A stretch of DNA of 43,273 nt from Candidatus Zipacnadia bacterium (GTDB taxonomy: Bacteria; Armatimonadota; Zipacnadia; Zipacnadales; UBA5352), in NCBI GenBank assembly GCA_029820295.1, contig JALGVA010000025.1, forward strand, positions 1 to 43,273. The letters run 5' to 3'. Below, piece after piece: positions 8,597-13,291 of the stretch. Within the stretch, counting starts at the first letter, position 1, and the number at the start of each line of letters is the position of its first letter. The notes beneath the pieces were generated by a model that made no database searches, was not told where the DNA came from, and saw only the letters and a program-made list of their open reading frames with translations. The translations under genes and the position numbers were made by a program.

Positions 8597-10099
8597 ATGT
8601 CAGAGGTGCGGACCCGCTTCGCCCCCTCGCCCACCGGCAACCTGCACGTCGGCGGCGCGCACACCGCCCTGTTCGCGTGGCTGTTCGCCCGCCACGAGGG
8701 CGGCAGGTTCGTCCTGCGCATCGAGGACACCGACGAGGTGCGCTCCACCGCGGAGTCGCTCGCGGCCATCTACGACGGCCTGCACTGGCTGGGGATCGAC
8801 TGGGACGAGGGCCCCGACGTGGGCGGGCCCCACGGGCCCTACATCCAGTCCGAGCGCCTCGACATCTATGAGGAGCACATTGCCCGCCTGATCGAGAGCG
8901 GCCGAGCCTACCGCTGCTACTGCACGCCCGAGGAGCTGGAGGAGCGGCGCGAGATCATGCGCGCCCGCGGCCTGCCGCCCCGTTACGACGGCAAGTGCCG
9001 CGCGCTCACCGCCGACGAGACCAGGCGCCTCGACGCCCAGGGGCGCGAGTTCTGCGTGCGCTTTCGCGTCGATGACCAGGGCGTGACCATCGTCGAAGAC
9101 CTGGTGCGCGGCGAGGTCGCCTTCGAGAACGCGCTCATGGGCGACTTCGTCATCCAGAAGACCTCCGGCTACCCGACTTACCACCTGGCCGTGGTGGTCG
9201 ATGACTACCTGATGGAGATCACGCACGTCATCCGCGCCGAGGAGCACCTGCCTAACACCCAGGCGCACCTGCAGCTCATGGAGGCGCTGGGCCTTGCGCC
9301 ACCGCAGTTCGCGCACCTGCCGCTGATCCTGGGCACCGACCGCACCAAGCTGAGCAAGCGCCACGGCGCGATCAACCTCATGGACTACCGGGAGCAGGGC
9401 TTCCTGCCCGAGGCCATGCGCAATTTCCTGGCGCTCATCGGCTGGTCGCCGGGCACCGACGAGGAGATCCTGAGCCTGGACGAGCTGATCGAGAAGTTTA
9501 CGCTCGAGGGCGTCAGCAGGTCGCCGGGCGTGTTCGACCTGGAGAAGGCCACCTGGCTCAACGGCGAGTACCTCAAGCGCGCGGACGCGGAGTACATCGC
9601 CGACCTGATCGAGCCGGAGCTGCGGGCCGAGGGGCTGATCGAGGAGGACCTTGGTCCCGAGCGGCGCGCGTGGCTGGTGGCGGTCGTGGAGCTGATGAAG
9701 GAGCGTACGCGGCTGCTGACCGACTTCGTGGTGTGGGGGCGCTACTTCTTCACCGACGACTACCTCTACGACAACCGCGCGCGCAGCAAGTGGCTGAGCC
9801 GCGAGGAGGTGCCGGAGCGCCTCGAGCTGCTTGCGGACCGGCTGGAGGGCCTCGAGAGCTGGGACGTGGACAGCATCGAGGGGGCGATTCGCGGCCTGGC
9901 CGCGGAGCTGGACGTGGGCGCGGCGAAGCTGATCCACCCGTGCCGGGCGGCGGTGACCGGGCAGACGGTGGGGCCGAGCCTGTTCGATCTGCTGGCGCTG
10001 GTGCCGCAGAAGGACGTGGTGGCGCGCCTGCGCAGGACGGCTGAGCTGGGCCGTGCGGGGGAGCTGGAGCCGCTGCCCGAGGGCGACGCCGCCGACTGA
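8597..10099 (+). CDS. gltX: Glutamyl-tRNA synthetase
   Basis: This class I enzyme charges tRNA-Glu, and in many bacteria also tRNA-Gln for later amidation. The 500-residue length is standard. The start is ATG 8597 with GAGAGG at 8581-8586. The N-terminus FAPSPTGNLHVGGAHTALF contains the HIGH-like motif HVGG (residues 17-20), followed by RIEDTD. The second signature, KLSKRHG, is at 251-257 in place of KMSKS. The C-terminal third is the helical anticodon-binding domain. No GatCAB gene is in the window, so whether it is discriminating cannot be told. It is transcribed from its own promoter, and a long structured gap follows. Confidence 0.96.
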   Translation: MSEVRTRFAPSPTGNLHVGGAHTALFAWLFARHEGGRFVLRIEDTDEVRSTAESLAAIYDGLHWLGIDWDEGPDVGGPHGPYIQSERLDIYEEHIARLIESGRAYRCYCTPEELEERREIMRARGLPPRYDGKCRALTADETRRLDAQGREFCVRFRVDDQGVTIVEDLVRGEVAFENALMGDFVIQKTSGYPTYHLAVVVDDYLMEITHVIRAEEHLPNTQAHLQLMEALGLAPPQFAHLPLILGTDRTKLSKRHGAINLMDYREQGFLPEAMRNFLALIGWSPGTDEEILSLDELIEKFTLEGVSRSPGVFDLEKATWLNGEYLKRADAEYIADLIEPELRAEGLIEEDLGPERRAWLVAVVELMKERTRLLTDFVVWGRYFFTDDYLYDNRARSKWLSREEVPERLELLADRLEGLESWDVDSIEGAIRGLAAELDVGAAKLIHPCRAAVTGQTVGPSLFDLLALVPQKDVVARLRRTAELGRAGELEPLPEGDAAD

Positions 10100-10158
10100 G
10101 CAGCCGGGGCGAGATCGAGCAACTTGGCTGGTTTGGTGAACATATGGGAGCGGGTATA

Positions 10159-10209
10159 CGTCTCATCAAGCGGACCTGGAGTCGTGGCGACGTTCGAGGT
10201 CCGCAGACG
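10159..10209 (+). other. Branched inverted repeat / possible structured RNA
   Basis: CGTCT (10159-10163) pairs with AGACG (10205-10209). GCGGACCT (10170-10177) pairs with AGGTCCGC (10197-10204). Inside, GTCG (10181-10184) pairs with CGAC (10188-10191). The left side has a 6-base bulge. A GTTCGAG segment recalls a tRNA T-loop, but the rest does not fold as a tRNA. It could be the 3' end of the gltX transcript or a small RNA. Confidence 0.45.
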
Positions 10210-10213
10210 GATT

Positions 10214-10260
10214 GGTGGGGGAGGAGGGTGTTGTCCCCGCCAACACCCGAGTCCCCCGCC
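10214..10260 (+). repeat. Two-part long hairpin, related to the G-rich intergenic repeat
   Basis: GGTGGGGGA (10214-10222) pairs with TCCCCCGCC (10252-10260). After a symmetric 3x3 internal loop, GGGTGTTG (10226-10233) pairs with CAACACCC (10241-10248). The loop is 7 bases. No T-run follows, so a classic terminator is unlikely. GGGGGAGGAGG is shared with the copy at 8376-8386. Confidence 0.55.
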
Positions 10261-10296
10261 GTACCATATCAGGAGGCCGGCGGCCCCGGGCACGTG

Positions 10297-10325
10297 TTGA
10301 CAAGCCCGAGTCGCTGTGCTATCCT
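10297..10325 (+). promoter_or_regulatory. Sigma-70-type promoter for the cysK-hcyS-hcyF unit
   Basis: A perfect -35 TTGACA (10297-10302) and a -10 TATCCT (10320-10325) are 17 bp apart. The inverted repeat CTCGCC-TCATCT-GGCGAG (10324-10341) overlaps the end of the -10 and the start site near 10332. It could be a repressor operator or a 5' hairpin of the transcript. The leader to cysK would be about 210 bases. Confidence 0.7.
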
Positions 10326-10368
10326 CGCCTCATCTGGCGAGCAGACGCGCGAGAGAGGACGCGCCATA

Positions 10369-10446
10369 GTGGCGACCACGCAGATTGAGGTGACGGTTGA
10401 CACGGTCGGCGCCATCCGGCGACCGTATCTGATGATGTCGCGCTGA
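10369..10446 (+). CDS. Possible 25-residue leader peptide
   Basis: A GTG at 10369 has GAGAGAGG at 10351-10358 and opens a 25-codon frame ending TGA at 10446. It lies wholly inside the transcript expected from the promoter at 10297-10325, and ends 4 bases before a terminator-like hairpin. The C-terminal part reads [10 protein letters not shown], with two adjacent Met codons three and four codons from the stop and no Cys codon. A leader peptide that lets translation control the hairpin would fit a sulfur amino-acid operon, but the coding status is unproven. Confidence 0.4.
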
Positions 10447-10450
10447 ACGA

Positions 10451-10502
10451 GGCCCCGCCCTGCTGCCATGTACCACGGCACCCGGGCACTGGGGCCCGTT
10501 TT
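10451..10502 (+). terminator. Attenuator-like hairpin upstream of cysK
   Basis: GGCCCC (10451-10456) pairs with GGGGCC (10491-10496). Inside, GCCC (10457-10460) can pair with GGGC (10484-10487) and TGCC (10464-10467) with GGCA (10477-10480). TTTT follows at 10499-10502. A competing hairpin, GCCCGT (10494-10499) with ACGGGC (10508-10513), uses the same 3' strand and would break the first. Two exclusive folds directly after a short ORF are the hallmark of attenuation. Fold energies were not computed. Confidence 0.45.
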
Positions 10503-10544
10503 CGTGTACGGGCATGGCGCAACAGACGCGGAGGAGTGGTTGCG

Positions 10545-11483
<939 letters not shown>

Positions 11484-11494
11484 GAGGAGGTCGC

Positions 11495-11659
11495 ATGATG
11501 TTCGGGCGCACCCGACCCGAGGCACAGGTGATGATCCGCATGGTCATGCCCCGGCGCCCCGCGGGGCGCACAGCCGGGATGGCCGCACCTGCCGCACCGT
11601 ACGAATACCGCGCGCCCGGACGTCACAGGAGCCCGCGGACGCCGGATCGGAGAGAGTGA
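11495..11659 (+). CDS. Possible 54-residue small protein between cysK and hcyS
   Basis: After the cysK stop there is a very good ribosome site (GGAGG at 11486-11490) followed by ATG 11495 and ATG 11498. The frame stays open for 54 codons and stops at 11657-11659, six bases before the hcyS start. The predicted peptide is rich in Arg, Pro and Met (starting MMFGRTRPEAQV) and matches nothing I know. Its end overlaps the hcyS ribosome site, so it could couple translation of cysK and hcyS. It may also be a chance frame in an untranslated spacer; G+C-rich DNA makes such frames common. Confidence 0.35.
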   Translation: MMFGRTRPEAQVMIRMVMPRRPAGRTAGMAAPAAPYEYRAPGRHRSPRTPDRRE

Positions 11660-11664
11660 TACCG

Positions 11665-12882
11665 TTGCCCAAGAGCTATGACGAGATCAACGAGAAGATC
11701 CGCAAGGGCGAGGTCGTGGTGGTGACCGCCGAGGAGATGGTAGACGTAGTTGCCGAGCTGGGGCCGGCCGGGGCCGCCGAGAAGATCGACGTGGTCACCA
11801 CCGGGACGTTCGGGCCGATGTGCTCATCGGGCGCCTTCCTGAACATCGGCCACAGCACGCCGCGCATGAAGATCACGAAGGCGTGGCTCAATGACGTGCC
11901 GGCCTACGCCGGCCTCGCGGCGGTGGACCTCTACATTGGCGCCACCGAGGTGGCGGAGGGCGATCCGCTCAATCGCAGCCACCCAGGGCGCTTCAGCTAC
12001 GGCGGCGGCCATGTCATCGAGGACCTGGTGGCGGGCAAGGACGTGCGCCTGCGCGCCGAGGCCTACGGCACCGACTGCTACCCGCGGCGCGAGCTGGACA
12101 CCTGGATCAGCATCGCCGACTTGAACGAGGCGTACATGCTCAACCCGCGCAACGGCTACCAGAACTACAACGTGGCGGTCAACGTGTACGCCGACCGTGA
12201 CATCTACACCTACATGGGCGTGGTCAAGCGCGACCTGGGAAGCGCGAACTACTGCTCGGCGGGGCAGCTCAGCCCGCTGCTCAACGATCCCTACTACCGG
12301 ACCATCGGCATCGGGACGCGCATCTTCCTGGGCGGCGCGCAGGGCTACGTCTACTGGCAGGGCACCCAGCATGACCCGACCGGCGGGCGGAACGAGCGCG
12401 GCGTGCCCACCGGCGGCTCCGGTACGCTGGCGACCGTCGGCGACCTCAAGCAGATGAACCCGCGCTATGTGGTGGGCGTGAGCATGCTCGGCTACGGCGT
12501 GTCGCTGGCCGTGGGGCTCGGGACGGCGATCCCGGTGCTGGACGAGGAGATCGCCTTCCAGACGGGCGTGAGCGATGCCGACATCACCGCGCCGATCATC
12601 GACTACAGCCGCAACTACGGCCTCAATGAGGGCGAGCCGTTGGGCGACGTGTCCTACGCGGCGCTGAAGACGGGCAGCATCGAGATCGAGGGCCGGCAGG
12701 TGCCGACGACGCCGCTGTCGAGCTACGTGCGTGCGAAAGAGATCGCGGAGAAGCTCAAGGAGCAGGTGGTGGCCGGGGAGTTCCTGCTGACCGAGCCGGT
12801 CGCGCCGCTGCCCTCGGCCGACAGCGGTCAGGGCTTCAAACCGCTCAAGTATCGCCCCGTGGGCGAGGAGGGGTGTGAGTAG
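11665..12882 (+). CDS. hcyS: Homocysteine biosynthesis protein HcyS (DUF39)
   Basis: HcyS-type proteins, with their ferredoxin partner, convert aspartate semialdehyde and sulfide to homocysteine, replacing the O-acyl-homoserine route. The 405-residue protein begins with the family pattern KSYDEINEKIRKGEVVVVTA. The start is taken as TTG 11665, with GGAGAGAG at 11649-11656 at ideal spacing; the in-frame GTG at 11656 lies on top of that site. The conserved cysteine segment is PMCSSGAF with Cys53, and a second likely functional cysteine is Cys138 in YGTDCYPR. The hcyF gene follows after 1 bp, the classic pairing for this pathway. The pathway is best known from methanogens and anaerobic bacteria, so its presence suggests access to free sulfide. 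Confidence 0.9.
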   Translation: MPKSYDEINEKIRKGEVVVVTAEEMVDVVAELGPAGAAEKIDVVTTGTFGPMCSSGAFLNIGHSTPRMKITKAWLNDVPAYAGLAAVDLYIGATEVAEGDPLNRSHPGRFSYGGGHVIEDLVAGKDVRLRAEAYGTDCYPRRELDTWISIADLNEAYMLNPRNGYQNYNVAVNVYADRDIYTYMGVVKRDLGSANYCSAGQLSPLLNDPYYRTIGIGTRIFLGGAQGYVYWQGTQHDPTGGRNERGVPTGGSGTLATVGDLKQMNPRYVVGVSMLGYGVSLAVGLGTAIPVLDEEIAFQTGVSDADITAPIIDYSRNYGLNEGEPLGDVSYAALKTGSIEIEGRQVPTTPLSSYVRAKEIAEKLKEQVVAGEFLLTEPVAPLPSADSGQGFKPLKYRPVGEEGCE

Positions 12883-12883
12883 C

Positions 12884-13291
12884 ATGGCCGAGAGCCGTGT
12901 GGTGCTTCACTTCCCGAAGGACCTGCTGGACCAGCCGGTGACCTCCACGGCCATCCGGCGCTACGATCTGGGCTTCAACATCCTGCGCGCGGACATCACC
13001 CAGGACCAGGAGGGTTTGATGGTGCTGGGCCTGGTGGGCGAGCCGGCTAACATCGAGGGCGCCATCGAGTGGATGCGCGAGCAGGGCGTGCGCGTGCAGC
13101 CGCTGGAGCAGGATGTGGTGCGCGATGACGAGCGCTGCACCGACTGCGGCGCGTGCATCGTGGTGTGCCCCACCGGCGCGCTGGCGATGGATGCGGCGAC
13201 CCGCGAGGTGAGCTTCGACGCCGAGCAGTGCGTGGCGTGCGGCATCTGCGTGCCCGTGTGCCCCCCGCGCGCGATGTCGATCAGCTTCTGA
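12884..13291 (+). CDS. hcyF: NIL-domain polyferredoxin, HcyF-type
   Basis: This 135-residue protein joins an N-terminal NIL domain (about residues 5-75) to two 4Fe-4S ferredoxin motifs. Cluster cysteines are 85-88-91-95 (CTDCGACIVVCP) and 116-119-122-126 (CVACGICVPVCP). NIL domains also occur at the end of the methionine ABC transporter ATPase. In the HcyS/HcyF pathway this protein is thought to supply electrons for homocysteine formation. The start is ATG 12884, with GAGGAGGGG upstream inside hcyS. It lies 1 bp after hcyS, so the two are surely co-transcribed. It ends the operon; a hairpin terminator follows at 13324. Confidence 0.9.
   Translation: MAESRVVLHFPKDLLDQPVTSTAIRRYDLGFNILRADITQDQEGLMVLGLVGEPANIEGAIEWMREQGVRVQPLEQDVVRDDERCTDCGACIVVCPTGALAMDAATREVSFDAEQCVACGICVPVCPPRAMSISF

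Follow-up and report, generated by a model that had tools for sequence, protein, structure and literature searches.

Two Methionine-Codon Leaders, One a Putative Transcription Attenuator, in a cysK-hcyS-hcyF Operon of a Zipacnadia Bacterium

The cysK-hcyS-hcyF Locus

The window analyzed here is a stretch of 43,273 nucleotides from a Candidatus Zipacnadia bacterium (contig JALGVA010000025.1). On its forward strand, it includes an operon of three genes, cysK, hcyS and hcyF, with one putative leader before cysK and another between cysK and hcyS. The hcyS and hcyF genes are part of a reported pathway in which aspartate semialdehyde and sulfide are converted to homocysteine, the precursor of methionine (PMC5764234). 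The features of the region are listed below.

10297-10325, forward: sigma-70-like promoter, TTGACA-17-TATCCT, with an extended -10 (TGTGC), from direct reading and from relatives
10351-10359, forward: Shine-Dalgarno (SD)-like GAGAGAGGA, 9 nt before the leader 1 GTG start, from direct reading
10369-10446, forward: leader 1 open reading frame (ORF), 25 codons, ending PYLMMSR (GTG at 10369, TGA at 10444-10446)
10432-10437, forward: two adjacent Met codons, the putative control codons of leader 1, conserved in relatives
10447-10502, forward: nested predicted intrinsic terminator ending in TTTT (10499-10502), from folding and from relatives
10503-10510, forward: CGTGTACG, just 3' of the T run; an apparent accessory of some family terminators, not specific to the attenuator
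10545-11483, forward: cysK, cysteine synthase A (TIGR01139, above cut-off)
11495-11659, forward: leader 2 ORF, 54 codons, MMFGRTRPEAQVMIRMVMPRRPAGR...RRE and a stop, with the SD sequence GAGAGGAGG
11554-11569, forward: leader 2 hairpin GCGCCC-CGCG-GGGCGC, 5 nt after the last Met codon, from covariation and a covariance model
11665-12882, forward: hcyS, homocysteine synthesis (HcyBio, DUF39; PF01837, E = 1.3e-149)
12875-13291, forward: hcyF, NIL domain plus ferredoxin partner (PF09383 and Fer4 domains)

The TTGACA hexamer of the promoter occupies positions 10297-10302 and is followed, after a 17-nt spacer, by TATCCT, which ends at 10325. The stretch from 9700 to 11400 yields this one sigma-70-like site, against 0.1 expected, and most family members repeat the arrangement as TTGACA-17-TGTGCTA. 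The start codon of hcyS is probably TTG, as placed by aligning relatives. An earlier note, made by reading this DNA, had described the promoter, the 25-codon ORF with its ribosome site, the PYLMMSR ending with adjacent Met codons and the nested hairpin running into TTTT, and all of these are indeed present.

Leader 1

Leader 1 was compared across its own genome and nine relatives, which together make up family f1. Its ORF is open in all ten genomes, with either Met-Met or one Met near the stop codon. Met-Met falls two to four codons before the stop in eight of the ten copies, against a mean of 0.06 and a maximum of 2 in shuffled sequences, in a test that takes no account of kinship and on genomes whose relatedness leaves fewer than ten independent cases of leader 1. 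These eight copies end in MMSR (twice), MMSHV, MMPDF, MMSHS, MMTHL, MMMYAV and MMYHI. The two exceptions, ending in IMSN and LMPQD, keep one Met, and the second Met of the doublet is retained in all ten. The rest of the ORF is much less conserved than Met-Met.

A covariance model trained on nine copies, with G008 as the sole genome outside the training set, gives one strong match per genome in all ten family genomes (E from 2e-11 to 3e-19). In nine of them, leader 1 precedes cysK-hcyS. In G008, which has no cysK, leader 1 is located directly before hcyS, and it is this arrangement that ties leader 1 to hcyS.

The predicted terminator has a folding energy of -29.7 kcal/mol, compared with -21.5 +/- 3.1 kcal/mol for shuffled sequences (z = -2.7), and the nested structure folds in all ten family genomes, at -27 to -36 kcal/mol. 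The earlier note had suggested folding the stretch from 10332 to 10544. Taken whole, these 213 nt are not unusual compared with shuffles (z = -0.67); the unusual part is the terminator alone. The comparison of relatives that it also suggested, for covariation and for conservation of the ORF, bears out the open ORF and, in part, the terminator stem, but not a second hairpin, which is considered below. Pairing in the stem is kept in 89% of alignment cells, and the stem varies so little that its covariation is modest. In all ten genomes, the stem begins at or inside the stop codon of leader 1, and the second Met codon lies 7-13 nt from it.

Leader 2

The leader between cysK and hcyS was overlooked by the earlier note, and it is more widespread than leader 1. 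The peptide contains the sequence VMIRMVMPRRP, with Met codons at 11531, 11540 and 11546. Leader 2 was traced by reading upstream of hcyS in other families of the order, where small ORFs with an in-frame M-x-M are found, and most of these ORFs carry a start codon and an SD-like site. Of the 32 hcyS genes in the order, 29 are preceded by the pattern ATGnnnATG (3.8 +/- 1.7 in shuffles) and 17 by a stretch of five codons that includes three for Met (0.35 in shuffles); these comparisons, like all those with shuffles, take no account of kinship. Outside the order, ATGnnnATG precedes hcyS in 3 of 13 cases, in families f18 and f37. The ATGs stay in one frame, while the codon that separates them differs, in part at its third position (GCT, GCC and GCG), as would be expected if it is the Met codons that are conserved.

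In the main form of leader 2, represented by 21 aligned sequences, a 7-bp hairpin begins 5 nt after the last Met codon. The hairpin covaries: 98.6% of cells are paired, 22 cells are changed on both sides, and none of 500 shuffles scores as high. When a covariance model of this form is searched, hcyS upstream regions are the top matches. The window is matched at 11528-11572 with E = 3e-12, as a member of the training set, and the nine matches of at least 29 bits from outside that set all lie just before hcyS. Most or all of the eight strongest matches away from hcyS are inside long reading frames and were set aside as background.

Leader 2 lacks a U run. Its ORF frequently stops no more than about 35 nt from the start of hcyS, an arrangement in which the leader could possibly act by translational coupling to hcyS. 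Pairing of the 3' arm of the hairpin with downstream copies of the 5' arm was also considered, and was rejected; it is seen in some genomes, but not above chance overall. In a few genomes, the predicted fold pairs the Met codons of leader 2 with a downstream CATCATCA.

Variant leaders are found in several families. A short form, in which M-x-M-R and a stop codon directly precede a larger hairpin that lacks a T run, occurs before some hcyS genes in families f2 and f18 and in part of f3. In one f3 genome (G034), ATGGGCATGCACTAG, encoding MGMH and a stop, is followed by a long hairpin about 300 nt upstream of cysK; the short form may thus also precede cysK. The f1 genomes G007 and G008 have second copies of hcyS, which lack leader 1 and have Met-rich leaders of their own, MAMCMPRMRRP and MFMRPRRESRR.

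Proposed Mechanism and Alternatives

The anatomy of the two leaders, their conservation, the in-frame placement of their Met codons and the pairing in their hairpins are shown by the sequences and their comparison. From these we infer translation of the leader ORFs, termination, Met sensing and occlusion by the ribosome as the switch. Leader 1 is likely to be a methionine-responsive, ribosome-mediated transcription attenuator of cysK-hcyS-hcyF, with leader 2 as a second Met-codon leader before hcyS. If charged Met-tRNA were ample, the ribosome would finish leader 1 and leave, the terminator would fold, and transcription would stop before cysK. If it were scarce, the ribosome would wait on Met-Met, so close to the stem as to block its base, and RNA polymerase would read through; a separate antiterminator would not be needed. 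That expression should rise as methionine becomes scarce follows the usual logic of biosynthetic operons. Leader 2 has a like geometry, with its three Met codons followed so closely by a hairpin, and, having no U run, it would probably affect translation of hcyS or else elongation within the operon. How fast ribosomes pass the Met codons would then probably decide whether the homocysteine genes are expressed. More tentatively, the operon may have two Met sensors in series, each with the ribosome as the switch and codons set against a hairpin without an antiterminator, leader 1 stopping transcription and leader 2, which is order-wide, gating hcyS.

A classical attenuator of the trp/his type, in which a stall at Met-Met would let an antiterminator form and so exclude the terminator, is the usual mode of action of amino-acid leader peptides. 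The attenuator proposed in the earlier note had such a competing hairpin, and the window does contain one alternative hairpin of 5 bp, in which GCCCG (10494-10498), within the 3' arm of the terminator, pairs with CGGGC (10509-10513). The Met leader and the predicted terminator of that proposal are present in all ten family genomes, whereas the competing hairpin is not conserved; its arms have equivalents in only two of the ten. Nor do the terminator arms pair with upstream or downstream RNA in the relatives any better than in shuffles (one sequence is left out of the upstream comparison), and no conserved antiterminator was found. In published amino-acid attenuators, moreover, over 20 bp separate the terminator from the leader gene and so spare it from the ribosome (PMC4824070), whereas the leader 1 stem already begins within the stop codon. 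When a stop codon in Escherichia coli was moved to 5 bp from a terminator, termination fell from about 90% to less than 10%, in a translation-dependent manner (PMC4824070). Given this spacing, direct occlusion by the ribosome would fit better than a competing hairpin, and a mechanism of the trp/his type is unlikely.

Other readings concern what the Met codons mean. The leaders could be translated and affect termination and yet answer the general status of translation and not methionine, since the Met link of both is drawn from sequence. However, it would then be unexpected for two different leaders in an operon of the Met pathway to be repeatedly enriched in Met, which makes this reading improbable. 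The leader peptide could also be a sequence-specific arrest peptide, stalling on Met or SAM binding and not at unloaded Met codons. Several family members do have EVT..TVG..RP..MM in common, but only the Met positions are kept across the ten genomes (compare GMMSHV, RVMMPDF, WSMMTHL, GMMMYAV and RMMYHI), and leader 2 has Met codons again in a different peptide context, so that an arrest peptide seems similarly improbable. It is harder still to credit that the ATG repeats are part of a structured, riboswitch-like RNA and are not read as codons. Conserved structure does adjoin the conserved sequence. However, the constant frame of the ATGs around a varying codon, and the start codons and SD sites of most leader 2 ORFs, argue against this, as does a search of Rfam, in which no family is above the gathering threshold in the window and only weak matches to implausible eukaryotic families occur near the element at E <= 5. 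The SAM-I riboswitch (RF00162) controls methionine genes in many bacteria; the present case differs in that RF00162 has no match in the window or in 41 genomes of the order, which counts against a riboswitch here too.

For occlusion itself, the geometry also holds a difficulty. A ribosome paused at the Met codons extends only to about where the stem begins, and one finishing at the stop codon would cover the stem as well, so the direction of control would depend on timing. Leader 2 has no terminator, and it may therefore be that one mechanism does not serve both leaders.

Relation to Known Systems

Leaders with Met codons have already been published for metBA and metNIQ, and those described here are thus of a known kind; what is new is the genes, the presence of two leaders and the fact that no antiterminator was found. 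In Campylobacter jejuni, a leader named MetL has been proposed for metBA, the RNA there ending a short way past the stop codon (PMC3847290), and initiation peaks have been seen at MetL (PMC11955535). Like the leaders here, MetL is a short ORF that has several Met codons and precedes genes of Met biosynthesis, although here the transcript end is predicted. It differs in preceding metBA and not hcyS, in being limited to C. jejuni and close relatives, and in being one leader and not two. In Streptomyces lividans, a Met-codon leader, metL, has been proposed for metNIQ (PMC8079986). This is also a Met-containing leader peptide before Met-related genes, but the operon is one of transport, the transcript is leaderless, and there is no clear intrinsic terminator.

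The trp, his and leu attenuators share with leader 1 an ORF, control codons and an intrinsic terminator (here predicted) before biosynthetic genes. They differ in the antiterminator, of which no conserved counterpart was found here, and in the distance of more than 20 bp between stop codon and stem, which here overlap. Attenuation of the pyrBI type, in E. coli, is comparable in that folding of the terminator is prevented by the ribosome itself, as it would be at leader 1, and the spacing from stop codon to stem, taken alone, fits occlusion of this type (PMC4824070). However, pyrBI senses UTP and has its terminator within the leader ORF, whereas here the Met codons would set the timing.

The earlier note knew of no attenuator before a cysK-hcyS-hcyF unit. 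In keeping with this, no description of a Met-codon leader before hcyS was found in the open-access literature, most subscription journals being outside the scope of the search, and no regulator of the DUF39/HcyBio homocysteine pathway is described in the literature searched. Regulation of this pathway has hardly been studied, and Met-codon leaders appear to be used for it throughout an entire bacterial order. The geometry, in which control codons touch the hairpin and no antiterminator was found, suggests a minimal design for an attenuator. If the two-sensor scheme is true, it would provide control of the route from aspartate semialdehyde to homocysteine in a lineage where the search for SAM riboswitches found none. 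Leader 2 also offers a conserved sequence signature by which Met control could be sought in uncultured lineages.

Other Elements Near the Operon

The invariant TGTACG after the T run of leader 1 was considered as a part of the switch, and was rejected, as it also follows other terminators. In the family, (C/A)GTGTACG or CATGTACG occurs after the T run of several unrelated terminators, some of them after tRNA genes. Elements of this type are found at 3 of 33 terminator-like sites in 400 kb of genome G006 and at 1 of 13 in 400 kb of genome G000, and may be accessory elements of termination. Among the weaker matches of the leader 1 model elsewhere, those inspected are mostly ordinary terminators followed by TGTACG, again in some cases after tRNA genes; one in G000 (C60) lies past the end of an ordinary coding gene.

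A further nested hairpin, GGTGGGGGA..GAGGGTGnnGTCCCCGCCnnCACCC..TCCCCCGCC, is present in single copy at 10213-10261 of the window, downstream of gltX. It is located 117-232 nt after gltX in eight of the ten family genomes and was found in none of the 141 other genomes searched. Its inner arm covaries, and its 5' arm has two alternative C-rich pairing partners. Where cysK is elsewhere in the genome, this hairpin remains with gltX.
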